A DNA stretch of 60,224 bases from Loigolactobacillus bifermentans DSM 20003. Its GTDB lineage: Bacteria > Bacillota > Bacilli > Lactobacillales > Lactobacillaceae. The notes under the pieces are model-generated. The model did not search any database. It was given only the letters and a program-made list of their open reading frames with translations, and was not told the DNA's origin. Positions 1,832 through 32,062 of this stretch are shown in pieces. The stretch is taken from NCBI RefSeq assembly GCF_001434575.1, contig NZ_AZDA01000082.1, positions 1 through 60,224 on the forward strand, given 5' to 3'. Position numbers and translations under genes: made by a program. Numbering within the stretch: the stretch's first letter is position 1; each line of letters opens with the position of its first letter.

Positions 1832-2743
1832 CTAAAAAAGCGCCATATTCTCAATCTGGAATGCCTGGCAAAATTCCTGATAAAAGACGCGCGCGCCAGG
1901 GTTGTGGTCTGTTTCGCGATAATAAATGTATTCATCATAACGACAATGCCGATTTGCTAGCGGAATAAAATGCAAGTTGTCCGGTGCAATCCGCTGTGCA
2001 AATTCTGGCACAATGACAATTCCCGAACCAGTTGAAGCTTCAAAAAGCGCAGTTGCTAAGTTTGGCATTTTTAAATAAGTGAGCTTGTTTTCAGTATAAT
2101 TTTCCGCAATTTTCCAAATTTTGGCATAAGGCCCAAAGAGTTCATTGGCAAACGGCACGAGTAAGTTCTAACCGATCAGGTCGTTCATTAAAATCAAGTT
2201 TTTAGTTCGTAATGGATGTTTCGGGTGTAAGGCCACTGCCACTGCTTGACTATCAATAAAGCGCTTCTGAATGTGTGGTGGGGTGGTTACAAAGCGACAA
2301 GGTGTGAGAATAATATCGTAAGCAGGATCTTGCAAGACGGCTTCAGGGGTACCATTTGTTAGAACTTGAATATCAGTACGAATATTAGGGTGCTGCAAAC
2401 GAAACTGTTGAATAAAATCGATTAAGCGTTGGGCATAAGATAATTCAACCACGCAAGCGATTCGAATGGTGGCTTCTGTGACATTGTGCCAGAACCGACT
2501 ATTAACAATGGCACGGTCGCATTGGTCAATTAATTCCGGCGCCTTTTGTGATAAGACACGGCCAGCTTCCGTTAAGTTGACGTGGTGGGTGCTACGTGTT
2601 AATAGCGGGACATTAAATTCTTGTTCTAGTTCTTTAATATGGCGTGAAAGAACTGGTTGTGAGATATAAAGAATTTTCGCGGCTTTACTAAAGTTCAAGG
2701 TTTTTGAAAGCACAATAAATTCATATAACATTTGAGTATCCAT
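1832..2743 (-). pseudogene. LysR-family regulator interrupted by an in-frame TAG
   Basis: Reading from 2743, a LysR protein with an N-terminal winged helix ('FSKAAKILYISQPVLSRHIKELEQEF') runs 191 codons to a TAG at 2170-2168. The same frame continues without a shift through the rest of the substrate-binding domain ('PFANELFGPYAKIW ... EFCQAFQIENMALF') to 1832. Without the TAG the protein would be about 303 residues, the usual LysR length. This looks like one nonsense change, perhaps from CAG (Gln). The N-terminal piece could still bind DNA, and a GTG at 2158 could restart the C-terminal piece. It is transcribed just behind the intact LysR at 2749-3639. Confidence 0.8.
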
Positions 2744-2748
2744 TTCAG

Positions 2749-3639
2749 CTATTCCTTTCTCAAAAAGCGGCTGAGTTCTTCAATAAAGGTTTTGCCAGCC
2801 TCTGAGTAAGGGGGCTTTGTGGCAAATAATGCGTAATTTGGACGTTGTGAAATGCCAGTTAATGGTCGTGCAACACAGCCGGTTGGGACTTGGGTGAACG
2901 CCATTGGATAAAGCAAAATGCCTTTTTTCATGGCAACCAGGTCGTTATAAAACAATAAGGTTGAGATCTGGCGATAAGGCTGTGTTTCAAAGTGAGCGGT
3001 TTTTAAAAGATGAACCTGAAAATCACGGATCAGCGTATTTTTAGTTGTAGGGTACAAAATAAATTGTTCATTTTTTAATTGTGAAAGGGCAATCCGTTTT
3101 TGGGTGGCTAAAACATGGTCAGCAGGGAGCAAAACTTGTGGTGTGGTAGTCATCAGATTGATTTGAACCAGGTCAGTGGCGGCTAGTGGTTGGTCACTAG
3201 GGGCAAGGTAAAAGTCGATTAGGTGATTTCGGAGACCCTGGTGAAGCTCAAATTGCGTTTCATCAAAAATTTTAAAATGGATTTCTGGATGGACTAAGTT
3301 CCAATTAACCAAAAAAGTTTGTAAAAAACGAGGCATGCCTTCACCGGCAATCGCTAACTTCAACATGGTACGGTGTTCGTGAGCAATTTTACGTAGTGAG
3401 CTACTTAAGGTGCGATAAGCCTGACAAGCCTTTAAAGCCTCAGGATAAAAGTTTTCAGCTTCCTTGGTCAGCATGAGTTGGCCATGATCATAGGTGAACA
3501 GTGGGAATCCAAGATGATTGGCAAAACTTTTTTGACGTCGACTTAAGGTGGCCGGATTAACAGCTAAACATTTAGCGGCCTCTGTAAAGCTGCTTTTTTC
3601 AGCAATAACGACAAATTCATGTAATCGTTGAAAGTCCAT
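2749..3639 (-). CDS. LysR-family transcriptional regulator
   Basis: The 296-residue protein has a LysR helix-turn-helix ('SSFTEAAKCLAVNPATLSRRQKSF') followed by a two-lobed effector-binding domain. The start is placed at ATG 3639 because GAAGGTG lies nine bases before it; a GTG four codons upstream falls inside that Shine-Dalgarno. It is divergent from the molybdoenzyme operon and is the best candidate for its activator, since LysR proteins usually control the adjacent divergent operon. The broken LysR gene follows five bases after its stop. The effector is unknown. Confidence 0.85.
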   Translation of the reverse strand: MDFQRLHEFVVIAEKSSFTEAAKCLAVNPATLSRRQKSFANHLGFPLFTYDHGQLMLTKEAENFYPEALKACQAYRTLSSSLRKIAHEHRTMLKLAIAGEGMPRFLQTFLVNWNLVHPEIHFKIFDETQFELHQGLRNHLIDFYLAPSDQPLAATDLVQINLMTTTPQVLLPADHVLATQKRIALSQLKNEQFILYPTTKNTLIRDFQVHLLKTAHFETQPYRQISTLLFYNDLVAMKKGILLYPMAFTQVPTGCVARPLTGISQRPNYALFATKPPYSEAGKTFIEELSRFLRKE

Positions 3640-3896
3640 AATGAGAAACACCTTCTTTGCTTAATTTCCATATGTTCAGATTAACACGAATGGTCAGATA
3701 AAAGGGTTACTTTTTAAGAATTTACGGCCGCCACACAAAAAAAGTGTATAACCCTTTGATCAAGTTACTTGAAAGCAGTTCTCAATTAAAAAATGAAAGT
3801 AAGATTTGTCGCGTTTTATGTTTTAACGGGATTTTTGAAAGTGATTATAAAGTGAAAGAATACACAAAATTATCATCTAATCACTTTTTGACATCT

Positions 3897-3926: not shown

Positions 3927-3972
3927 CGACTTATAAATCAGATGATATGATTTTTAAGAAAAATGTAGTCGT

Positions 3973-3999
3973 GATTGTCATCACGTGTTGATGACAATC
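3973..3999 (+). promoter_or_regulatory. Perfect 11-bp inverted repeat in the molybdoenzyme 5' leader
   Basis: GATTGTCATCA-CGTGT-TGATGACAATC lies about 45 bases after the -10 and ends ten bases before the AAAGGAGG Shine-Dalgarno. It could be an operator or an RNA hairpin near the ribosome binding site. There is no T run, so it is not a terminator. Confidence 0.6.
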
Positions 4000-4024
4000 T
4001 GATCCAGTTAAAGGAGGCAACATG

Positions 4025-6700
4025 ATGTCGAAAGAAGATTTTTTAGCGGCGACTAATATGGCGGTGAATTTGACCTTAGATGGCGACAGTCAAACCAAGT
4101 TCGTTGATGCGTCACAGGCGTCTGAGGACGATGGCGATACTGTTAAAATTATCAAAACGGCTTGCCGAGCCTGTATTTCTAATTGTGGCGTCTTGGCGAC
4201 GGTTAAAAATGGTCGCGTGATTCACTTAGAAGGTAATCCGGAAGATCCGATGAGTAATGGTCATATGTGTGCCAAAGGGTTGTCAGGAATTCAGGCGCTG
4301 TACAATCCAAATCGAAATAAGTACCCACTGATTCGGGTTGGCAAACGTGGCGAAAATAAATGGAAACGCATTTCTTGGAAGGAAGCCATTGATACAATTG
4401 CGCATAAATTAATGGCCGCCAAAAAAGATTTTGGCGCAGAAAGCGTCTTTTGTTCAACAGGTGGCGGGGGCAACCCAGAATTCTGGAGTATTTCCCGTTT
4501 CTGTAATATTTTTGGGACACCAAACTGGTTTGAACCAGGCTGCGCGCAATGTTATCTACCACGGATGTGTGTTTATGACATGATGTATGGCGGTACCAAT
4601 GCGAGTATCGCGGATTCAAACGCGCAGGAAATTTATTTTGCCCATGATACAAAAATGAAGTCATTGGTTTTGTGGGGGGCTGATCCATCCTATTCAAGTC
4701 CGGCTTCCGGTGGCAGTGCTTTGGTTAATTTACGCGCACATGGCGTTAAAACGGTGGTCATTGATCCACGGATGACGCCAGACGCTGCGAAAGCAGATGT
4801 GTGGTTGCCTGTTCGACCAGGTTCAGATGTAGCCTTACAGTTGGCTTGGATCCGCTATATTATTGATCACAAACTTTATAATCATGACTTTGTGATGAAA
4901 TGGACTAATTTACCTTATTTGGTCAACGTTGAAACCAAGTTGGAGTGGCGTGCCGCGAAAAGTTCGGATTCAAACCAGCCAGATACATTTATGGTGTGGG
5001 ATCAAAAGACGAATGCGCCACAACCGCTTGCTTATCCTTGGAATGAGGATTTGGATGTGGCTTTAGAAGGGACCTTTGTGATCAACGGGGTCACTTATAA
5101 AACGGGTTTTCAATTATTAAAAGAGCGTGTTGAAGCCTATACCCTTGAAGAAGCAGCGAAGATTTGCTGGGTACCTCAAGATAAAATTGAAGCAGCGATT
5201 TTAACCTTTACTAATAATATGCCTGGAGGCCTCTGCATTGGGGTCGCTACGGATCAGTCACCAAACTCTGCTCAGGCTGCCATGGCCGCTGGGATCATTG
5301 ATATGTTAATGGGGGATGTTGAACGACCAGGGGCCTTGCTGCAGCGCTTCGGTTCAGCTGGCGCCACCAACATGATTGGTTACTGTGTACCTCCCGCACA
5401 ATCAAAATTACCAGATGAACAGTTGAAGAAGCGTTTAGGCACCATTGAACATAAGGGCTTGCACATGTGGTTAGCAGGTCATGCGCCTTCTGTGTTGCAT
5501 GCTATTGAAACAGGTGACCCTTATCCATTACGTGTTTGGTTGGAACGTTCGGGTAATAAATTAGTGAATTTAGCGGATAGTCAGCGCTGGGCCAAAGCAA
5601 CTGAAAAAGTTGATTTCATTGTGCATATGTACATGTATCCAACATCATTTTCAGCTTATGCGGATATGTTATTACCAACTGAAGAATGGCTTGAAACAGA
5701 CATGATCGTTGAAACCTGTAATAAGTTAATGGCCCGTCAAGCGGTGACTCATTTGTGGGAAACCATTGATGAAACAGTCATTTGGTCGAAACTGGCTAAA
5801 CGTTGTGCTGAATTAGGCCATGAAGGTTGCCGGAAAGCCTTTGATGCTGAGTATATGGGTGATGACTTACCTTATTGGGATTCAATGGAGGAATTACTGG
5901 ATGCTAACCTAAAGAATACCAAGTTCACTTGGCAACAATTAAAGGCTGAGGCACCAGTTGAATACATGTCTGAAAAAGAATATCGCAGTTACTACACTTA
6001 TTTGAAACCGAATGCAGCTGGACAACCACAAGGCTTCCCAACACCATCAAAGAAATTGGAACTTTATTTGGAAAGTATGATCACGTTAGGGCGTACAGGA
6101 CAGCCTTACAGTCATTGTGAATTGCCAGCAGCGTCTCAAGATTACGATCCATTACCATACTATGAAGAGCCATATGAAAGTCCACTACCAGGCAGTAAAA
6201 TGGCGGCAGAATACCCACTGGTCATGACCAATGGCCGGATTCCTTATTACCATCATGGCACGTTACGCAACGTTGCTTGGACACGGGAATTATACCCAGC
6301 ACCTGAAGTGTGGATCCACCCACAAGCTGCTAAAAAGTACGGTGTTCAAGATGATCAATGGATTTGGGTTGAATCTTTGCGCGGGAAAGTCCGGGGTATT
6401 GCTCATATTACCTCAGGCATCAATCCAGGTTCTGTGTATATGGAGCGTTTCTGGGCCCCTGAAAACTTAAACAGCAAGACCCATGGTTGGCAAGAAATGA
6501 ACGTTAACGTATTAGCCCGTTCAAAAGGGCCTTACAATGACGTATTTGGGACATATACGCTACGCGGCTATTTGGTTAAGATCTATCCTGCACCAGAAGG
6601 CGCACCAGAAGGGGTTTACTTAGAGCCAAAAGAATTTAAGTCGTTTTTAGCAACGCCTTCGGCCAAAACACCTGATATGACGAAGGGAGAAACAGTATAA
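4025..6700 (+). CDS. Molybdopterin oxidoreductase, DMSO-reductase family, cytoplasmic catalytic subunit
   Basis: The 891-residue protein begins after about 45 extra residues with a [4Fe-4S] motif C-x2-C-x3-C-x27-C (Cys47, 50, 54, 82) and a following Lys in 'CAKG'. The molybdopterin-binding oxidoreductase core comes next and the C-terminal cofactor-binding domain ('YPLVMTNGRIPYYHHGT ... VWIHPQAAKKYGV') closes it. 'PGCAQCYLPRMC' (Cys173, Cys176) lies where the Mo ligand is expected, so Cys ligation is likely. There is no twin-arginine signal or membrane segment. AAAGGAGG is seven bases before the second ATG, 4025, and only four before ATG 4022, so 4025 is preferred. Substrate unknown: a polysulfide/thiosulfate reductase-like enzyme or a catechol dehydroxylase are both possible. 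No cofactor synthesis genes lie in the window. Confidence 0.85.
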   Translation: MSKEDFLAATNMAVNLTLDGDSQTKFVDASQASEDDGDTVKIIKTACRACISNCGVLATVKNGRVIHLEGNPEDPMSNGHMCAKGLSGIQALYNPNRNKYPLIRVGKRGENKWKRISWKEAIDTIAHKLMAAKKDFGAESVFCSTGGGGNPEFWSISRFCNIFGTPNWFEPGCAQCYLPRMCVYDMMYGGTNASIADSNAQEIYFAHDTKMKSLVLWGADPSYSSPASGGSALVNLRAHGVKTVVIDPRMTPDAAKADVWLPVRPGSDVALQLAWIRYIIDHKLYNHDFVMKWTNLPYLVNVETKLEWRAAKSSDSNQPDTFMVWDQKTNAPQPLAYPWNEDLDVALEGTFVINGVTYKTGFQLLKERVEAYTLEEAAKICWVPQDKIEAAILTFTNNMPGGLCIGVATDQSPNSAQAAMAAGIIDMLMGDVERPGALLQRFGSAGATNMIGYCVPPAQSKLPDEQLKKRLGTIEHKGLHMWLAGHAPSVLHAIETGDPYPLRVWLERSGNKLVNLADSQRWAKATEKVDFIVHMYMYPTSFSAYADMLLPTEEWLETDMIVETCNKLMARQAVTHLWETIDETVIWSKLAKRCAELGHEGCRKAFDAEYMGDDLPYWDSMEELLDANLKNTKFTWQQLKAEAPVEYMSEKEYRSYYTYLKPNAAGQPQGFPTPSKKLELYLESMITLGRTGQPYSHCELPAASQDYDPLPYYEEPYESPLPGSKMAAEYPLVMTNGRIPYYHHGTLRNVAWTRELYPAPEVWIHPQAAKKYGVQDDQWIWVESLRGKVRGIAHITSGINPGSVYMERFWAPENLNSKTHGWQEMNVNVLARSKGPYNDVFGTYTLRGYLVKIYPAPEGAPEGVYLEPKEFKSFLATPSAKTPDMTKGETV

Positions 6701-7317
6701 TGAAAAAAATCGCATTTGCAGTGGAATTAGATCGCTGTATTGGTTGTAAAGGCTGTCAGGTCGCTTGCAAAATGGAAAATCACCTGCCATTAGGCACCAA
6801 TCGAACTTCTGTCAAGGAAATTGGACCAACAGGGGAATATCCCAATATTCAAATGTACTTTTTACCTGCCATGTGTCAGCAATGTGAGAATCCCACTTGT
6901 GTCAAAGTTTGCCCAACTGGCGCCTGCCACGTCAATCCTGAGGACGGTGTGATTGAAATTGATCGCGATAAATGTATCGGCTGTAAATCGTGTATTCGTG
7001 CCTGTCCTTACGAGGCCATTAGCTTTAACGAAGAATTACACGTTTCTGATAAGTGTGATGTGTGTGCCTTACGGCGCTTAACCGGCAATTTACCGGCTTG
7101 TGTTAAAAATTGTACAGGGGGCGCGTTACATGTTGGTGATCTTAACGATCCAAACAGTGATGTTTCAAAGTTGATTGCTGACGCTGGTGAAGAAAATGTG
7201 TATTCATTGCGTGATTTTGGTAACGGGCCTTCCGTAAAATACATTTTAAAAAATGATAAATGGCTGGATGTTTTACCACAAGAATGTGTCAGTGTCAGAA
7301 GGGGGAAGCGCAAATGA
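6700..7317 (+). CDS. Four-cluster ferredoxin-like electron transfer subunit (DmsB/PhsB type)
   Basis: The 205-residue protein holds sixteen cysteines in four groups (13/16/19/23, 59/62/67/71, 92/95/98/102, 119/122/134/138), the pattern of four [4Fe-4S] clusters in DmsB, PhsB and PsrB subunits. These proteins wire electrons to the Mo subunit. The start overlaps the upstream stop by one base (TAATG) and its own stop overlaps the next start (ATGA), so the genes are translationally coupled. No membrane-anchor gene (DmsC/PsrC type) is present, so the electron source must be soluble, most simply the AsrA/AsrB-like proteins encoded next. Confidence 0.92.
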   Translation: MKKIAFAVELDRCIGCKGCQVACKMENHLPLGTNRTSVKEIGPTGEYPNIQMYFLPAMCQQCENPTCVKVCPTGACHVNPEDGVIEIDRDKCIGCKSCIRACPYEAISFNEELHVSDKCDVCALRRLTGNLPACVKNCTGGALHVGDLNDPNSDVSKLIADAGEENVYSLRDFGNGPSVKYILKNDKWLDVLPQECVSVRRGKRK

Positions 7318-8990
7318 GCCCTAGTGAAGTGCAAACCTTAAATCAAAATCGACTTCATTTTTATCAATTGTTAGCCCGAGTGTATCAACATGAATTGTCT
7401 CAGAGCATGATTCAACAATTGGTACATGTAACGTTTCCTAAGCAAACGGGCTCGGCTGAAATGGATCGTGGTTATGGCTTGTTAGAACGCTATTTTGTTA
7501 ATCATCAAATTGCTGCCATTGAGGAAGACTTGGCTTGCGACTATGCCAAAGTTTTCTTAGCAGCTGGTGAAACGAAAGGCAATGCTGCTTTTCCATATGA
7601 ATCTGTTTATACTAGTGATGAGAAATTAGTCATGCAACAAGCTTGGGCCGATGTGCGCGCCATTTATGGTTTAGAGAAGCTGGCCTTAGACACTGAAATG
7701 GCGGATATTAAAGAAGATCATATTGCAGTTGAATTGAAGTTTATGGCCTACTTGTGCGAAAAAAACAATTTAGAAGCGCAACAAACGTTTTTAAAAACAC
7801 ATTTGTTAGATTGGATCGTCGATTTTTGCGAAGATATACGCAAGTATAGCCACACCGATTTTTATCGTGGTATCGCTGATTTAACAGTGGGCTTTTTGAA
7901 ACGGGATGCAGCGTTGATTGAAACGCTGCAAACTGCAGCGCAGGCGCCTGCCACAAGTTTTACCATGGCCAATTCGGATTTTGATGCACTGATTCAGCAG
8001 TGGCAACAACATTATCATGTTTTTGCGCCAGCCTTTGTAAACGGGCGCAGTAATCAACACCGACCATTAGTCCGCTTCCAAGAAATCAACCAGGTCAGCG
8101 ATATTGTTTACGATCGTCAGTCAGATTTTTCCGCCAAGGAAATTTATTATCCGATTATGCAAACCATGTTTTACTTCACGGAGCATGAGGTGAAGGAAAG
8201 CCGGTTGAAAGACGATAAGGATTATCTGATTTTTATGCACCCTTGCGATATTAATGCGTTGCGTCGAACCGATACCGTTTTCATGAAAAACGGTGGCTTA
8301 ACGGATAGTTATTATAAACGGCTACGGGATAAAGTGAAAATTGTCATGATGGAATGCACACAAAGTTGTGAGAACTGTTTCTGTGTATCGATGAATTCAA
8401 ATCGGTCGGATCATTATGATATGGCGGTGCGTTTTGATCAGCATCAAATGAATGTTAATGTGAAAGACCCAAGTTTCTTAGCTGATTTTCAAGCAGCGCA
8501 AACCAGTGATTTTCAACCACAGTTTATTTCAGAGAATCAAGCAACCGTAACCTTACCTGAAATTAATTCGCGGGAAGAATTGGATTTAGCCGGTCATTTG
8601 GATTATTGGCAAACCTTTAATGAACGTTGTATTGGTTGTGGTGGCTGTAACACAGTGTGCCCAACGTGTACTTGTTTTGACACGTTAGATGTGACTTATG
8701 ACGAAAGCGGCAAACAAGGCGAACGGCGGCGCGTTTGGTCTTCTTGTATGTTGGATACTTTTACCCAAACAGCTGGTGGTAATCGCGCGCGGAAAACACC
8801 AGGCGATAATATGCGCTTTAAAACCTTGCATAAAGTTTACGATTACAAACAACGTTTTGGTGAAGAAAACATGTGTGTCGGCTGTGGCCGTTGTGTGATG
8901 CGCTGTCCCAAAGATATTTCATTTAGCGACACGATTAATGGCTTTACAGCTGCTTTCGCACAGGCTAAACAAGAACAGGCGGTGAAATAA
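7314..8990 (+). CDS. Fusion of a TorD-like chaperone with an AsrA-like iron-sulfur subunit
   Basis: The 558-residue protein has two parts. Residues 10-205 look like a TorD/DmsD chaperone, with the signature 'PYESVY' (94-99) and 'EDHIAVELKFM' (134-144). Residues about 221-558 match AsrA, the anaerobic sulfite reductase A subunit, with 'HPCDINALRRTD' (309-320), a Cys-rich 'ECTQSCENCFC' (347-357) and two [4Fe-4S] motifs (Cys439/442/445/449 and 521/524/527/531). AsrA-type proteins are usually near 340 residues and lack the chaperone part. ATG 7314 is chosen over an in-frame ATG at 7260 because it has an AGGGGG Shine-Dalgarno and a 4-bp overlap with the gene before. One protein may thus both mature and reduce the Mo enzyme. 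Confidence 0.88.
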   Translation: MSPSEVQTLNQNRLHFYQLLARVYQHELSQSMIQQLVHVTFPKQTGSAEMDRGYGLLERYFVNHQIAAIEEDLACDYAKVFLAAGETKGNAAFPYESVYTSDEKLVMQQAWADVRAIYGLEKLALDTEMADIKEDHIAVELKFMAYLCEKNNLEAQQTFLKTHLLDWIVDFCEDIRKYSHTDFYRGIADLTVGFLKRDAALIETLQTAAQAPATSFTMANSDFDALIQQWQQHYHVFAPAFVNGRSNQHRPLVRFQEINQVSDIVYDRQSDFSAKEIYYPIMQTMFYFTEHEVKESRLKDDKDYLIFMHPCDINALRRTDTVFMKNGGLTDSYYKRLRDKVKIVMMECTQSCENCFCVSMNSNRSDHYDMAVRFDQHQMNVNVKDPSFLADFQAAQTSDFQPQFISENQATVTLPEINSREELDLAGHLDYWQTFNERCIGCGGCNTVCPTCTCFDTLDVTYDESGKQGERRRVWSSCMLDTFTQTAGGNRARKTPGDNMRFKTLHKVYDYKQRFGEENMCVGCGRCVMRCPKDISFSDTINGFTAAFAQAKQEQAVK

Positions 8991-9785
8991 ATGGAAAATA
9001 TAATGTTGCCTGAACCGCATCAAATCTTAGATGTGGTCAAAGAAACGCAAGCAGAATATACTTTTCGGGTAGCGTATGATAAGCCGACCCAGTATAATCA
9101 ATTTTTCCAATTGTCCATCCCGAAAGTGGGGGAAGCGCCTATTTCAGTGAGTGGGAAAGGGAATGGTTACCTTGAATTCACCATGCGCAAAGTCGGTCGC
9201 TTAACAGAAGGGGTTTTTGGCCTTGATAAAGGGGATACGCTCTTTATGCGCGGCCCTTATGGCAATAGTTTTCCAGTTGCTGATTTTGAGGGTAAAGATC
9301 TGGTTGTTATCTGTGGTGGGACAGGGATGTCGCCAGTAAAAACGGTATTAACACACTTTATGGATCATCCTGAAATTTCTAAATCGGTACATTTCATTGT
9401 GGGTTTTAAGGATATTAACAGTGTCTTGTTTACGGACGCATTGAAAACCTTTAGTGAACAGCCGAAATTCCGCACCACGTATTGTTTGGACAACAGTGAA
9501 GCACCCGGTTTTCATAAAGGTTTTGTCACCCAATATATTAAAAACGTGCCCTTTGCTGATTTTGATGACTATAATGTTGCGATTGTTGGACCACCGATGA
9601 TGATGGGATTTTCAGCACAAGAATGTTTGAAAAATGGGGCTGACCCTAAGAAAATCTGGGTTTCCTTTGAGCGTCGCATGTCGTGTGCTGTTGGTAAATG
9701 TGGCCATTGTAAGATCAATGATACCTATGTGTGTTTAGATGGCCCCGTATTCAATTATACGAAGGCAGCCCATTTATTTGATTAA
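8991..9785 (+). CDS. AsrB-like FAD/NAD(P)H oxidoreductase subunit
   Basis: The 264-residue protein has a ferredoxin-reductase fold: FAD site 'RGPYGNSFP' (87-95), NAD(P)-binding 'CGGTGMSP' (108-115) and a C-terminal [2Fe-2S] motif (Cys232, 237, 240, 248), as in AsrB and dihydroorotate dehydrogenase K subunits. It should take electrons from NADH or NADPH and hand them to the AsrA domain encoded directly upstream; ATG follows the preceding TAA without a gap. The siroheme subunit AsrC, needed for sulfite reduction, is absent. The pair therefore most likely serves the molybdoenzyme. The operon ends in a terminator. Confidence 0.92.
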   Translation: MENIMLPEPHQILDVVKETQAEYTFRVAYDKPTQYNQFFQLSIPKVGEAPISVSGKGNGYLEFTMRKVGRLTEGVFGLDKGDTLFMRGPYGNSFPVADFEGKDLVVICGGTGMSPVKTVLTHFMDHPEISKSVHFIVGFKDINSVLFTDALKTFSEQPKFRTTYCLDNSEAPGFHKGFVTQYIKNVPFADFDDYNVAIVGPPMMMGFSAQECLKNGADPKKIWVSFERRMSCAVGKCGHCKINDTYVCLDGPVFNYTKAAHLFD

Positions 9786-10905: not shown

Positions 10906-12360
10906 ATGACGATTAGTCAAAAAGAACGTTATGATATTGTCGTAGTTGGAACAGGTGCTGCTGGCACATCAGCGGCCTTGGAAGCAACACAACAAGGTGC
11001 CACTGTTTTGTTACTTGAAAAGGGACGCCATACAGGTGGCAGTAGTAATTATACAGAAGGGCTATTTGCGGTCGATTCATATCTCCAAAAGCAGCAAGGC
11101 ATTCAGGTTTCTGGTACAGATGTTTTGAAAGAAGAAGTTGAATACTCAAAATTTAAAGCGGATTCACGCATTTGGCGGCGGTATGTCGATGATAGTGCAA
11201 ATACCGTTCAATGGTTACGTGATCAAGGTGTGACTTATGAAGGTGTTCAGGCCATGGGGGCCGGTGAAGCAACTTGGCACATTTATGATGGGATGGGTCA
11301 GTCTGTGTTGCATGATCACTTATTACCACAGGCTGAAAAATTAGGTGTCGAATTATTAACATCTACCACAGCAGTTGAATTATTACAGGATCAAACAGGG
11401 GCGATCACTGGGGTTAAAATCCAAGATGAAATTACCCGCGATTTGCAAAATGTCCAAACATCAGCCGTGATTTTAGCCACCGGTGGTTATTTGAACAATC
11501 CTGAAATGATGGCCCAATTAACGGCCTATGACACGTCACGTTTGGTGCCGGTCAGCTCAGGAAAGGGCACGGGCGATGGGTTGCGGTTAGCCTGGAACGC
11601 AGGTGCAAAACAGTATGGCACTGGCATGGCCATGTTATTTGGCGGTTATCTCAAAGATCCAGACGAACCATCGTTTAAACTGATGGCATCCCAAATGAAT
11701 ACCGCCGCTGGTCAACAGCCGTTACTTTGGGTCAATGAACACGGTGAGCGTTTTGTAGATGAATCTGTTGTGTATAATTTTTCATATGCTGGTAATGCGT
11801 TGTATACGCAAAACCAAGTTTTCAGCATTTTAGACCAAGGCGTGATCGATAAAATGGCCACTGACGGTCATTTTATGGGACTTGGCGTTTATGTGAAGCG
11901 TGGTGAAAAAATGGCCACTTTGCAGGCCGAGTTAGATGAAACTGTGGCTGCCCATAAACCGTTTATTTTTAAAGCAGATACGATTGAAGCGTTAGCGCAG
12001 GCTATGGGGATGTCGGAAACAGCCTTGACACAAACTGTGTTAACTTACAATCAGTTTTGTGCAGCTGGTGTCGATCAGGACTTTGGTAAGGCGCAGCAAT
12101 ATCTTGTGCCAGTTACAAAAGGACCGTTTTATGGTTTTAAGTTAAACGTTGGTGCGTTTTGCACCATGGGTGGCTTACAAGTCACAACTGACAATGCCGT
12201 TTTAACAAATGCCGGCACGCCGATTCCAGGCCTATATGCTGCTGGTAATGACGCGTCTGGTTTAACCGGTGATACCTATGGGCCCAATATGCCAGGCACT
12301 TGTGTTGGGTATGCTTTCTATTCAGGTCGCAACGCTGGCCACCATGCGGCGCAAGCTTAA
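10906..12360 (+). CDS. FAD-dependent fumarate-reductase-like enzyme, possibly vinylphenol reductase
   Basis: The 484-residue protein is a single FAD_binding_2 flavoprotein. It has the dinucleotide motif 'VVVGTGAAGTSAALEA' near residue 12, 'GGSSNYTEG' and a C-terminal FAD motif 'PGLYAAGNDASGL'. It lacks the FMN-linked or heme domains of other fumarate or urocanate reductases. L. plantarum VprA, which reduces 4-vinylphenols to 4-ethylphenols, belongs to this broad group, and the presence of padA about 9 kb away makes that role attractive. Other alkene substrates (fumarate, enoates, steroids) are possible. AAGGGGGAA precedes ATG 10906. The gene stands alone between its LysR and a terminator. Confidence 0.7.
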   Translation: MTISQKERYDIVVVGTGAAGTSAALEATQQGATVLLLEKGRHTGGSSNYTEGLFAVDSYLQKQQGIQVSGTDVLKEEVEYSKFKADSRIWRRYVDDSANTVQWLRDQGVTYEGVQAMGAGEATWHIYDGMGQSVLHDHLLPQAEKLGVELLTSTTAVELLQDQTGAITGVKIQDEITRDLQNVQTSAVILATGGYLNNPEMMAQLTAYDTSRLVPVSSGKGTGDGLRLAWNAGAKQYGTGMAMLFGGYLKDPDEPSFKLMASQMNTAAGQQPLLWVNEHGERFVDESVVYNFSYAGNALYTQNQVFSILDQGVIDKMATDGHFMGLGVYVKRGEKMATLQAELDETVAAHKPFIFKADTIEALAQAMGMSETALTQTVLTYNQFCAAGVDQDFGKAQQYLVPVTKGPFYGFKLNVGAFCTMGGLQVTTDNAVLTNAGTPIPGLYAAGNDASGLTGDTYGPNMPGTCVGYAFYSGRNAGHHAAQA

Positions 12361-12983: not shown

Positions 12984-13182
12984 GAGTCAACCACCTTTCT
13001 AAAATCAGTATACAAAAGCAGCTGGTGACAATGCAACTGTAAAGTGGTCGCCTCTGTTTTTCTTGATCAGAAGTGCTATGATGAATGTTAGTGTAACCCC
13101 TTTCTTTTATATCGTAATCATGGCATACTAGTGATAACGATTGTGGATGTTGAAAGGTTACAAAGCGAAAGGAGTTTTTTGC

Positions 13183-14955
13183 ATGCATTATACCAATGGA
13201 AACTATGAAGCTTTTGCCAGACCACGAAAACCAGCTGGCGTTGATCAGAAATCGGCCTATATTGTGGGGACCGGTTTAGCCGGTTTAGCGGCTGCTGCAT
13301 TTTTAATTCGGGATGGTCAAATGCCCGGAGACCACATTCATTTGTTTGAAGAATTACCATTAGGTGGGGGCTCATTAGACGGTGAAAGTCGGCCTGATAT
13401 TGGTTTTGTAACCCGTGGTGGTCGTGAAATGGAAGATCACTTTGAATGTTTATGGGATCTTTATCGTTCTATTCCATCTTTAGAAATTGAAGGGGCCTCA
13501 TATTTAGATGAATATTACTGGTTGGATAAAGATGATCCTAACTCATCGAATTGTCGCCTAATCTATCAACGTGGGAATCAAGTGCCGGATGATGGCCAGT
13601 ATACGTTAGGCAAAACATCAAAGGAAATTATGAAGTTGGTGCTGACGCCAGAAGCTAAGTTGGGCAAGCAAACAATCGGTGAATACTTTACACCGGCGTT
13701 TTTTGATAGTAATTTTTGGATCTATTGGTCAACCATGTTTGCTTTTGAAAAATGGCATTCAGTGGTTGAAATGCGGCGTTATGCCATGCGTTTCATTCAT
13801 CATATTGATGGCTTGCCTGATTTCACCGCACTGAAATTTAACAAGTACAATCAATATGACTCAATGGTCTTACCACTGATCAAGTACTTAGAAAGTCACC
13901 AGGTTGCGATTCAGTACGATACCACGGTGCAAAACGTGATCGTGACGACTAAAGGTGCCGAGAAACACGCTGAGAAGCTGTTGTTAACGGTAAAAGGTGC
14001 ACCACAAGAAATCAATTTAACGGACAATGATTTGGTTTTCGTGACCAACGGTTCCATTACTGAAAGTACAACTTATGGGGATCATCACACACCAGCACCC
14101 GTTTCCAAAGCAGTCGGTGGCAGCTGGCAGCTATGGGAAAATTTGGCCAAGCAATCACCAGATTTCGGTCATCCCAAAGTCTTCTATAAGAATATTCCGG
14201 CTAAAAGTTGGTTTGTATCCGCAACGGCCACGATTGAAAATACAGCAGTTGATCCGTATATCGAACGTCTGACAAAGCGGGATCTACATGATGGTAAAGT
14301 CAATACCGGTGGGATTATCACGGTAACAGATTCAAGCTGGGATCTTAGTTTTACCATTCACCGGCAACCACATTTTAAGAACCAAAAGCCAAATGAAACG
14401 GTGGTTTGGATCTATGCGCTGTACTCTGATACAGAAGGTGATTACATTCATAAAAAAATCACAGACTGTACCGGAGAAGAGATTACCCAAGAGTGGTTGT
14501 ATCATTTAGGTGTCCCGACCAGCTTGATTGGTCAATTGTCACAACAAGAATCGATTAACACAAATCCAGTGTATATGCCTTACATTACGGCATACTTTAT
14601 GCCTCGTTTGAAAGGTGACCGGCCAGCTGTTGTTCCAAAAGGCTCACAAAATATTGCCTTTATTGGAAACTTTGCGGAGTCACCATCGCGAGATACCGTG
14701 TTTACCACTGAATATTCTGTGAGAACGGCAATGGAGGCAGTTTATACGCTATTAGCGATTGAACGTGGCGTGCCAGAAGTCTTTAATTCCGTTTATGACA
14801 TTCGTGAATTATTAAAATCAACCTATTATTTAGGCGATAAGAAAAAATTAACTGAAACCAAGCTACCGATTCCAGCACCGATTAAACGCCGAATCGTGCG
14901 TAAAGTTCGTGGGACTTGGATCGGTGAACTATTACGCAATGCAAAATTATTGTAA
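13183..14955 (+). CDS. ohyA: Oleate hydratase (myosin-cross-reactive antigen family)
   Basis: The 590-residue FAD protein adds water to the cis-9 double bond of oleic or linoleic acid, giving 10-hydroxy fatty acids. That is a detoxification step at the inner face of the membrane. Family motifs are clear: '[20 protein letters not shown]' near residue 28, 'PLGGGSLDG', '[16 protein letters not shown]' and '[20 protein letters not shown]'. ATG 13183 is eight bases after GGAG; an upstream in-frame TTG at 13141 lacks a Shine-Dalgarno. It appears monocistronic. Length fits the family (about 565-590). Confidence 0.96.
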
Positions 14956-30643: not shown

Positions 30644-32062
30644 TTAAATTCTAAAATCGCGTGCGCCAACTGCAATTTCGTCGATATGCTTACCGACGAC
30701 TTCACGAATGCGTTCGTTTGGAATATCCGTTAGTTTTTCGTGGATCACCCGATTACCCAGTGCAACTGTTTCAGGACTCGCATAATCTTCAAGATATTCC
30801 TTCAAGGTCATCAAAGCATTTGGGTGACAGCAGTTTTGAATTTGACCACTTTTACAAAGCGACATAAAGCGGTCGCCTGTTCGACCAGCACGGTAGCAGG
30901 CTGTGCAGAAACTTGGAATATAACCAAGTTCCATTAGCCAACGCACCACTTCATCAAGGGTTCGTTTGTCACTGGTATCAAACTGGTTCGATTCTAAGCT
31001 ATCGCGATCTGTTCCTGCATAACCGCCGACGCTGGTGACAGAGGCCCCACTAATTTGTGAGATACCTAAGTCCAAAACGTTACGACGTGTGGCCATACTT
31101 TCCCGCGTGGACATGATCATACCAGTGTAAGGAACAGCAATGCGAATACAAGCGACGATCTTTTCAAACGTTTCTTCACTGATCCCGTTGTCGAAAGTAT
31201 CCGGATCAATATCGTCAGCTGGCCGAATTCGGGGCACTGAGATCGTATGCGGTCCAACGCCAAAAGCGGCCTCCAGATGTTCTGCATGCATTAAAAGCCC
31301 AGCAAATTCGTAGCGGTATTTATCAAGACCGAATAAAACACCGATCCCAACGTCATCAATGCCACCTTCTTGTGCCCGATCCATCGCTTCAGTATGATAA
31401 TCATAATCATGTTTAGGGCCCCAAGGGTGTAATTTCAAATAACTTGCTTTGTGATAAGTTTCTTGGAATAGAATGTAAGTGCCAATACCAGCTTCGTGTA
31501 ATTTACGATAATTTTCAACAGTCGTTGCTGCAATATTAACGTTGACACGGCGAATCGCGCCATTTTTATGTTTAATGCTATAAATTGTATTAATGGATTC
31601 TAACACGTATTCAATCGGACAATTCCGAGGATCTTCGCCAGTTTCCAAGGCTAAGCGTTTGTGGCCCATATCTTGCAGGGCAATTACCTCGCGCCGGATC
31701 TCGTCTTGGGTCAGTTTTTTACGCGGAATGTGCTTGTTTTGACCATGGAATGGGCAATAAACACAACCGTTGACACAATAGTTAGAGAGATATAATGGCG
31801 CGAATAAAACGATTCGGCTGCCATAAAAGGCCTCCTTGATCCCTTTGGCCAAACCAAGGATCTCTGCATTTTTATCAGGTAGGGTACAAGCTAATAAAAC
31901 AGAAGCTTCCCGGTGGTTTAAGCCCTTATGTAGTTGTGCTTTTTCCAGGATCTGATCGATCAATGCCGCATTTTCTTTATTGGCGTCGGCATACGCCAAG
32001 GTATCTTGAATTTCATCATCGCTGATAAATTCAGTGGCAACGTGAGATTTTGGATTATACAT
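30644..32062 (-). CDS. hydG: [FeFe]-hydrogenase H-cluster radical SAM maturase HydG
   Basis: The 472-residue protein is a radical SAM enzyme: CxxxCxxC at Cys96/100/103 ('NYCVNGCVYC'). The C-terminal motif C-x2-C-x22-C (Cys386, 389, 412) is exactly the second-cluster signature that separates HydG from the shorter thiamine protein ThiH (about 375 residues). HydG cleaves tyrosine to p-cresol and builds the Fe(CO)2(CN) unit of the hydrogenase H-cluster. HydE, HydF and a hydrogenase are not in this window, so it is either a dispersed member of the system or has another role. The start ATG has AAAGGAAGG upstream. No decay is seen. Confidence 0.9.
   Translation of the reverse strand: MYNPKSHVATEFISDDEIQDTLAYADANKENAALIDQILEKAQLHKGLNHREASVLLACTLPDKNAEILGLAKGIKEAFYGSRIVLFAPLYLSNYCVNGCVYCPFHGQNKHIPRKKLTQDEIRREVIALQDMGHKRLALETGEDPRNCPIEYVLESINTIYSIKHKNGAIRRVNVNIAATTVENYRKLHEAGIGTYILFQETYHKASYLKLHPWGPKHDYDYHTEAMDRAQEGGIDDVGIGVLFGLDKYRYEFAGLLMHAEHLEAAFGVGPHTISVPRIRPADDIDPDTFDNGISEETFEKIVACIRIAVPYTGMIMSTRESMATRRNVLDLGISQISGASVTSVGGYAGTDRDSLESNQFDTSDKRTLDEVVRWLMELGYIPSFCTACYRAGRTGDRFMSLCKSGQIQNCCHPNALMTLKEYLEDYASPETVALGNRVIHEKLTDIPNERIREVVGKHIDEIAVGARDFRI

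Follow-up and report, generated by a model that had tools for sequence, protein, structure and literature searches.

Catechol dehydroxylases are reported to be closest to acetylene hydratase, and homologues are reported from Desulfitobacterium and Clostridium ljungdahlii (Maini Rekdal et al., PMC7028382). They include an Eggerthella type (Dadh, Hcdh, Cadh) and a Gordonibacter type, the latter described as soluble alpha-beta enzymes without a signal for twin-arginine translocation (Tat) (PMC7028382). A further source reports for the Gordonibacter type a simpler two-component make-up without an Fe-S motif in the catalytic subunit, and its description, as far as available, does not mention AsrAB (PMC11574389). 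Dopamine dehydroxylase is reported to require accessory proteins, among them a chaperone and two ferredoxins that span the membrane (PMC11887054). Here we describe an operon at positions 4022-9785 of a 60,224-nucleotide stretch of Loigolactobacillus bifermentans DSM 20003 (contig NZ_AZDA01000082.1, positions 1 to 60,224; the whole stretch is called the window), in which a molybdenum (Mo) subunit is combined with AsrA and AsrB, proteins otherwise known from the sulfite reductase AsrABC. The operon probably encodes a cytoplasmic NAD(P)H-dependent Mo reductase, derived from an exported enzyme that captured AsrAB, with phenols of the catechol or pyrogallol type as candidate substrate class. We put the probability of this reading at about three in four, and that of the substrate class lower, at less than even.

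The operon consists of four genes on the plus strand whose ends touch or overlap. The catalytic subunit, expected to carry Mo (or tungsten) in a bis-molybdopterin guanine dinucleotide (bis-MGD) cofactor, is encoded at 4022..6700 (892 aa; PF04879, PF00384, PF01568). There are candidate ATGs at 4022 and 4025, and 4025 is the probable start because both the spacing to GGAGG (by eye) and the start of the orthologue in Agrilactobacillus yilanensis agree with it. The subunit has a 4Fe-4S motif at C48-C51-C55-C83, and none of the 25 models listed for it (of 26) passed its cut-off. A ferredoxin of the PsrB/NrfC/DmsB type with four [4Fe-4S] motifs follows at 6700..7317 (205 aa); it has 18 cysteines, among which four four-cysteine groups are seen by eye. 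The third gene (7314..8990, 558 aa) fuses a TorD-type chaperone domain (7314..7928, about residues 1-205; PF02613, 3.5e-23) to AsrA, a 4Fe-4S electron carrier (7956..8990, residues 215-550; TIGR02910, 382 bits, cut-off 323). The TorD model PRK04976 scored 93 bits on the fusion, below its cut-off of 132, and the fold of the domain matched DmsD, YcdY and TorD; the predicted model of the fusion had a predicted local distance difference test score (pLDDT) of 82.5 and a predicted template modelling score of 0.58. The last gene encodes AsrB, an NAD(P)H/FAD-type reductase (8991..9785, 264 aa; TIGR02911, 319 bits, cut-off 288.6; PF00175, PF10418), with a C-terminal 2Fe-2S motif at Cys 232, 237, 240 and 248. 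The junctions read TAATG between Mo subunit and ferredoxin (a one-base overlap), ATGA between ferredoxin and fusion (an overlap), and TAA-ATG between fusion and AsrB (no gap); therefore, translation is probably coupled. No gene for an NrfD-type membrane anchor is present among the four, and the best match to AsrC (TIGR02912) in the whole host genome reached 43 bits against a cut-off of 324. The original prediction, which was made from the letters of this stretch, had proposed four coupled genes for a Mo subunit without Tat signal, a four-cluster ferredoxin, a TorD-AsrA fusion and AsrB, lacking both anchor and AsrC, and the models, motifs and junctions agree with it on each of these points.

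Among solved structures, AsrA is nearest to the beta subunit (9nez_B, by sequence and fold) and AsrB to the gamma subunit (9nez_C, by sequence) of the NADPH-linked sulfhydrogenase I of Pyrococcus furiosus, and the ferredoxin is closest to PsrB. The terminal partner in sulfhydrogenase I, which we take to be a NiFe hydrogenase, differs from the Mo enzyme of the window. Cys177, Gln176 and Lys85 of the Mo subunit were invariant in 42 of 42 family members. In a profile alignment, Cys177 aligned with the cysteine of acetylene hydratase that we assume to be its metal ligand, and it is a probable metal ligand itself; Lys85 presumably occupies an electron-transfer position. We infer that NAD(P)H would pass two electrons to the FAD of AsrB, from where they would move through the 2Fe-2S cluster of AsrB and the 4Fe-4S clusters of AsrA to the four-cluster ferredoxin, and on through the 4Fe-4S cluster of the Mo subunit to the bis-MGD metal with its Cys ligand. 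The metal would reduce a small acceptor, and the NAD(P)H thereby re-oxidised would make the complex an electron sink. The TorD domain, being fused to AsrA, would load and guard the catalytic subunit during assembly. Without a Tat signal to proofread, it probably retains a role in cofactor loading or docking.

A scan of species genomes yielded 112 relatives of the Mo subunit. Our locus comparisons cover the best 80 of these (L038-L117), together with the window and locus L034 of genome G1062 where stated. For sorting the loci, the parts of the window operon and four proteins of G1062 (NrfD, TorD, NapG, NapH) served as tblastn queries. The relatives fell into two types, one linked to AsrAB and the other to NrfD/NapG. 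The Mo subunits of the NrfD/NapG type are Tat-exported (52-64% identical) and occur in Sporomusa, Sutterella, Deferribacterales and others, in loci that also encode an anchor, a chaperone and NapG/NapH-like ferredoxins. A script placed a single Mo open reading frame (ORF) and its N-terminus in 77 of the 82 rows (80 loci, L034 and the window); L060, L074, L091, L103 and L105, for which it placed no single Mo ORF, were left out of the Tat count and of the Mo tree. A twin arginine with a charge-free hydrophobic stretch was found in all 17 NrfD/NapG-type rows and in none of the 50 AsrAB-type rows (Fisher p about 3e-16, with related sequences counted as independent), and in two of the 10 unassigned rows. 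Two AsrAB-type rows (L063, L075) had paired arginines and failed the hydrophobic test. The AsrAB label of L042, L065 and L084 was given from AsrA alone.

The N-termini of the exported and the AsrAB-type subunits still align, as illustrated by NRRDFLKSTAITG (G1062), NKKDFLSATNITG (Clostridiaceae BL-3) and SKEDFLAATNMAV (window). The N-terminal extension of the window's Mo subunit (4025..4153, plus strand) aligns with the Tat signal of its exported relatives: SKEDFLAATN stands opposite NRRDFLKSTA, and the twin arginine and the hydrophobic stretch are gone. Residues 1-37 of the predicted Mo subunit model had a pLDDT below 50. The Tat signal of the window's Mo subunit seems to have decayed in place. 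The operon looks like the internalised form of a Tat-exported respiratory enzyme, a point that the original prediction had overlooked. Of the 52 loci with an AsrA match, 27 have TorD and AsrA in one frame and 24 have them apart or out of frame; at L085, TorD was not found.

TatC was searched for in the genomes of the host, G1062 and 61 of the 80 loci. A match was obtained in 16 of the 17 NrfD/NapG-type hosts, with a 1.5-Mb Campylobacter metagenome-assembled genome (MAG) as the exception, in 3 of the 40 AsrAB-type hosts, and in one of the six unassigned hosts (L092, which carries a Tat signal). The cross-table of locus types and TatC matches gave a Fisher p of 2.6e-10. The genomes of the host, Loigolactobacillus binensis and A. 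yilanensis contained no match to TatC (PF00902). The internalised form of the enzyme goes together with hosts without a TatC match, an association that may run in either direction.

Phylogenetic trees were used to follow the two types. The Mo tree comprised 76 family rows and one outgroup, leaving out L116 (684 aa). The electron-donor label required one change on this tree, against a mean of 15 after shuffling, and again one change without the outgroup. In the AsrB tree, the firmer of the two (79 rows, 22 of which received their AsrC label from reading the adjoining ORF and not from a model), all 50 of the 50 Mo-linked AsrB fell in one clade, with a support of 97 in the Shimodaira-Hasegawa-like approximate likelihood ratio test (SH-aLRT). 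This clade lies within a wider group containing six AsrB with a neighbour read as AsrC and one (L159) without AsrC. On the Mo tree, three Clostridium loci (L046, L059, L067), in which TorD is separate from AsrA, adjoin the NrfD type; on the AsrB tree they sit at the base of the Mo-linked clade, where the branching is poorly resolved.

Taken most simply, these trees suggest a single capture of AsrAB, by one exported enzyme, from an asrABC operon. A Tat-exported, NrfD-anchored and quinol-linked reductase would have acquired this module from an asrABC-encoded sulfite reductase, after which export and anchor would have been lost and the enzyme would have become cytoplasmic. The TorD-AsrA fusion would have arisen later, in part of the descendants. 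The internalised enzyme would then have spread in mostly Tat-less Clostridia and finally reached a few lactobacilli. Such a change, by which capture of a sulfite-reductase module makes a cytoplasmic NAD(P)H-linked enzyme out of an exported respiratory molybdoenzyme, looks new.

In total, 3 of 397 Lactobacillaceae genomes carried the Mo subunit (the host, one congener and one species of another genus), as did the host's own genome only among 395 order-level genomes. At phylum level, 398 genomes gave 21 matches at 1e-50, of which G1062 was the nearest after the host (62% identity). The further lactobacillar carriers, L. binensis and A. yilanensis, have the identical four-gene set in identical order, with Mo subunits that are 84% identical. 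Nonsynonymous divergence (dN) among the three operons was 0.11-0.34, and the proportion of synonymous differences (pS, 0.73-0.83) showed synonymous sites to be near saturation. Since the four-gene order is kept in two more lactobacilli at this divergence, its assembly is not due to chance. Contamination was ruled out by the surrounding housekeeping genes, the fitting G+C content (43.3% in the operon vs 42.7% in the window) and the presence of the same operon in the two other lactobacilli.

Judged by record titles, the best 80 relatives were mostly from Lachnospiraceae, Oscillospiraceae and Clostridium; the relatives included Eubacterium oxidoreducens, Parasporobacterium paucivorans, Sporomusa, Sutterella, Parasutterella and Deferribacterales. 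The AsrAB-type four-gene set recurred in many Clostridia, which, set against 3 of 397 genomes of the family and 1 of 395 of the order, ruled out a lactobacillar invention. The three lactobacilli formed a single clade on the Mo tree (SH-aLRT 100), joined by a gene of a Flavonifractor MAG (L040; support 91, 77-78% identical). Because the lactobacillar copies nest within the clostridial radiation, they were probably acquired from Clostridia by horizontal transfer. The literature that we covered, mostly at the level of titles and abstracts and with preprints and most subscription papers outside its scope, contained no description of an Asr-linked molybdoenzyme complex, nor of such a complex in lactobacilli. 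Hence, the earlier statement that no lactobacillar system of this composition had been described was borne out in that literature, but the composition is common in Clostridia and not lactobacillar as such.

The host genome (3.13 Mb, 147 contigs) contains three PF00384 genes: the operon copy, a NarG-sized gene on contig C49 and a 924-aa frame on contig C63. Near the nar genes on C49, moaA, moaC and mobB scored above their cut-offs. Genes resembling moaE, moeA, moaB and moeB matched clearly, though under the equivalog cut-offs, and two short ORFs looked like moaD and mobA by eye, for which the search at 1e-20 gave no match. The original prediction had named absence of molybdopterin synthesis genes as a ground for its refutation; as these genes are present, that ground falls away. 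Its proposal of a soluble, probably NAD(P)H-linked molybdoenzyme without anchor or AsrC, in a host with cofactor genes, is supported. C49 also carries narGHJI-like nitrate reductase genes, two-component and GAF-like genes and menaquinone genes (menB over its cut-off); apart from menB and the cofactor genes, gene names on this contig were assigned by reading the sequence.

The window enzyme resembles the Eggerthella-type catechol dehydroxylases, which consist of a Mo subunit, a four-cluster ferredoxin and an anchor, with a chaperone and two membrane ferredoxins, in several respects. Acetylene hydratase, in print the nearest relative of the catechol dehydroxylases, ranked first among its solved relatives by two measures (summed bits and Foldseek E-value) but behind PsrA by two others (best single stretch and, marginally, TM-score). 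The window enzyme has both a 4Fe-4S motif in the catalytic subunit and a four-cluster beta subunit, and its exported relatives carry an anchor, a chaperone and NapG/NapH-like ferredoxins. Unlike the Eggerthella type, it has neither Tat signal nor anchor, and an NAD(P)H module replaces the quinol partner. With the Gordonibacter type it shares solubility and the missing Tat signal, but not the reported make-up. AsrA and AsrB of the window exceed the NCBIfam cut-offs for the AsrABC subunits, and its AsrB nests among AsrC-linked AsrB. In contrast to AsrABC, however, the set has no siroheme subunit AsrC, its AsrA is fused to TorD, and its terminal enzyme is a molybdoenzyme. The urolithin C dehydroxylase Ucdh of a gut Clostridium is likewise reported to perform NADH-driven, Mo-dependent phenol dehydroxylation, but it belongs to the xanthine-oxidase family, a separate family of Mo enzymes, and no homology is claimed (PMC12771579). 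PhsA and PsrA differ in that the Mo subunit of the window scored under the PhsA cut-off and its operon lacks an NrfD-type membrane subunit. The small subunit of the pyrogallol transhydroxylase AthLS was weakly similar to the ferredoxin of the window (55.7 bits).

The likeliest candidate substrates, tentatively, are phenols of the catechol or pyrogallol type, which would be reductively dehydroxylated as by the catechol dehydroxylases. In the profile search, summed bits ranked acetylene hydratase (226) above PsrA (2vpw, 201) and perchlorate reductase (155), and Foldseek E-values placed acetylene hydratase first, perchlorate reductase next and PsrA eighth. A possible, if somewhat doubtful, extension is that a Tat-exported, quinol-linked, catechol-dehydroxylase-like reductase, internalised a single time by capture of the NAD(P)H module, to which its Tat chaperone was later fused, now serves Tat-less fermenters, including lactobacilli, as a cytoplasmic NAD(P)H-regenerating phenol dehydroxylase and electron sink. 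The host genome contains an lpdCB-like decarboxylase pair adjoining a LysR gene (by eye), with PF01977 over its cut-off and VdcC and VdcB at 368 and 261 bits (cut-offs 650 and 290), which could supply catechol or pyrogallol. The original prediction had also pointed to the padA locus alongside the operon. This clue is weakened, since padA (1234-1788) and the vinyl phenol reductase gene vprA (10906-12360; NF053717, 829 bits, cut-off 600) are not conserved neighbours in the other two lactobacillar carriers. The earlier interpretation holds in its main lines, although the system also occurs beyond lactobacilli and has no fixed tie to the phenolic genes. A second VprA-like gene (45% identical) lies on contig C97 of the host genome.

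Neighbouring genes were compared by clustering 1239 ORFs, taken from 82 loci (the 80 loci, L034 and the window's initial 20 kb), all against all. In each of the 60 largest clusters, one member was inspected by eye over its first 60 residues, and neither a transporter nor a catabolic gene was noticed as a conserved neighbour; these clusters consisted mainly of the operon, NrfD/Nap genes, regulators and Mo cofactor genes. BaiCD-like flavoenzymes and MtaA/CmuA-like methyltransferases, all under cut-off, occurred near one Parasporobacterium and one Sporomusa copy, which is suggestive of methoxyaromatic use there, though not in general.

Several observations weigh against our reading of a cytoplasmic NAD(P)H-dependent Mo reductase with this history and substrate class. 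Three clostridial loci (L049, L072, L090) have no AsrAB beside the Mo gene although flanking DNA was available, and two others (L042, L065) show a weak or partial AsrA; these sets of Mo subunit, ferredoxin and TorD possibly use another electron donor. The three AsrAB-type hosts with TatC are C. lacusfryxellense, L056 and L065 (with its AsrA fragment), and the absence of TatC is inflated by the many incomplete MAGs among the hosts. Support for the branch between the two architectures of the Mo tree was low (38 and 43), and L053/L054 sit at the base of the AsrB clade but elsewhere on the Mo tree. The likeness to the Eggerthella type rests on descriptions, as the 80 loci include no Coriobacteriia sequence. 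With respect to the substrate, the A. yilanensis genome gave neither a UbiD match nor a VprA match at 1e-60, and padA and vprA were absent from beside the operon in both other lactobacilli within the 20-22 kb examined around it. Finally, the best single stretch in the profile search belonged to PsrA (156 bits vs 119.5 for acetylene hydratase), the TM-scores of PsrA and ArrA (0.69) equalled or slightly exceeded that of acetylene hydratase (0.68), and among NCBIfam models the Mo subunit scored highest with PhsA (NF012032; 283.7 bits, cut-off 694).

These last scores would fit a cytoplasmic NAD(P)H:thiosulfate, polysulfide or related sulfur-compound reductase, with the same electron route and a different substrate: the AsrAB donor would have retained a sulfur substrate, and a PhsA/PsrA-like Mo subunit would have replaced the siroheme subunit. 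The descent of AsrAB from sulfite-reductase AsrAB, PsrB as nearest relative of the ferredoxin and the Cys metal ligand, which we take to be common to PsrA/PhsA and acetylene hydratase, point in the same direction. However, the PhsA score is far under its cut-off, PsrA trails acetylene hydratase in both summed bits and Foldseek E-value, and the NapG/NapH-like set of the exported relatives resembles the set reported for dopamine dehydroxylase; we therefore consider a sulfur-compound reductase unlikely. A reductase of some other small organic or inorganic acceptor (e.g., an N- or S-oxide, arsenate or selenate), fed by the same NAD(P)H route, is a possibility to be taken seriously, if with some doubt. 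It would suit the wide host range, from gut and rumen Clostridia through Sporomusa, Sutterella and Deferribacterales to lactobacilli, and the absence of a conserved transporter or catabolic neighbour in the clusters inspected, but the DmsA, TorA, ArrA and NapA models all scored far under their cut-offs.

Two further alternatives concern the reaction itself. The complex might work in reverse, oxidising its substrate and passing the electrons to NAD(P)+, because FAD/NAD(P) modules of this kind can be reversible, as in sulfhydrogenase. This is improbable, since the relatives are NrfD-type, reductase-like complexes, and AsrABC is described as an NADH-linked sulfite reductase (PMC10949509). The first rank of acetylene hydratase among solved proteins also raises non-redox chemistry, by a hydratase or by a transhydroxylase like that of pyrogallol, which we regard as very improbable. 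The site aligned with the catalytic residue of acetylene hydratase, presumably Asp13 beside the 4Fe-4S cysteine, has Ile in 36 of the 42 family members and Thr in the other 6, so hydration is unlikely; a complete NAD(P)H chain is attached; and the large subunit of pyrogallol transhydroxylase was not among the 51 PDB sequence matches. A transhydroxylase role in E. oxidoreducens is not favoured either, that genome having six PF00384 genes.

The capture of AsrAB by an exported enzyme suggests, through living forms that look intermediate, how a membrane respiratory enzyme may turn into a soluble fermentative one by a swap of electron donor, and it predicts that absence of the Tat system favours such conversion. 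If true, AsrAB would be a general NAD(P)H plug for siroheme and Mo enzymes alike, many unassigned clostridial molybdoenzymes of gut and rumen would gain an electron donor and a testable role, and some lactobacilli would possess a hidden electron sink. The catechol hypothesis can be tested in the isolates L. binensis and A. yilanensis.

Upstream of the operon, the palindrome GTGAT-N4-ATCAC (3971..3984, plus strand) lies within a longer inverted repeat at 3973-3999. It ends 37 (window), 38 (L. binensis) and 49 (A. yilanensis) bases before the start codon used, which in the window was the ATG at 4022; the longest open frame of A. yilanensis starts 10 bases after the palindrome. By chance, 0.09 such palindromes would be expected in the window and 0.01 in a 20-kb locus. 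We take this to be the shape of a Crp/Fnr-type site, and matches to the Crp-type helix-turn-helix exceeded the cut-off in all three lactobacillar genomes. The same palindrome was found in three clostridial loci read as asrABC (L164, 359-372; L165, 410-423; L175, 409-422), where it ends 56-108 bases upstream of the asrA frame. It is as if the Mo operon and the asrABC operons were both under a Crp/Fnr-type regulator.

A LysR-type regulator gene, identified by reading, diverges from the operon (2749..3651, minus strand) and has a homologue (42% identical) at the same place in A. yilanensis. A second LysR-type gene (1832..2743, minus strand, by reading) is broken by a single in-frame stop. Both L. 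binensis and A. yilanensis have similar, uninterrupted genes upstream of the operon. Downstream, the operon is followed by an oleate hydratase gene (13141-14955; 874 bits, cut-off 567), and at 30647-32062 (minus strand) the window holds a complete HydG, the radical SAM maturase of the [FeFe]-hydrogenase H-cluster (TIGR03955, 893 bits, cut-off 312). Near the exported Mo operon of G1062, a Tat-type FAD-dependent reductase and a small FMN-binding-like lipoprotein were recognised by eye (L034, 3212-5460, minus strand). Downstream of one exported copy in Sporomusa acidovorans, a second molybdoenzyme (bisC/dmsA-like, under cut-offs) occurs together with a ferredoxin (L086, 18664-22056).

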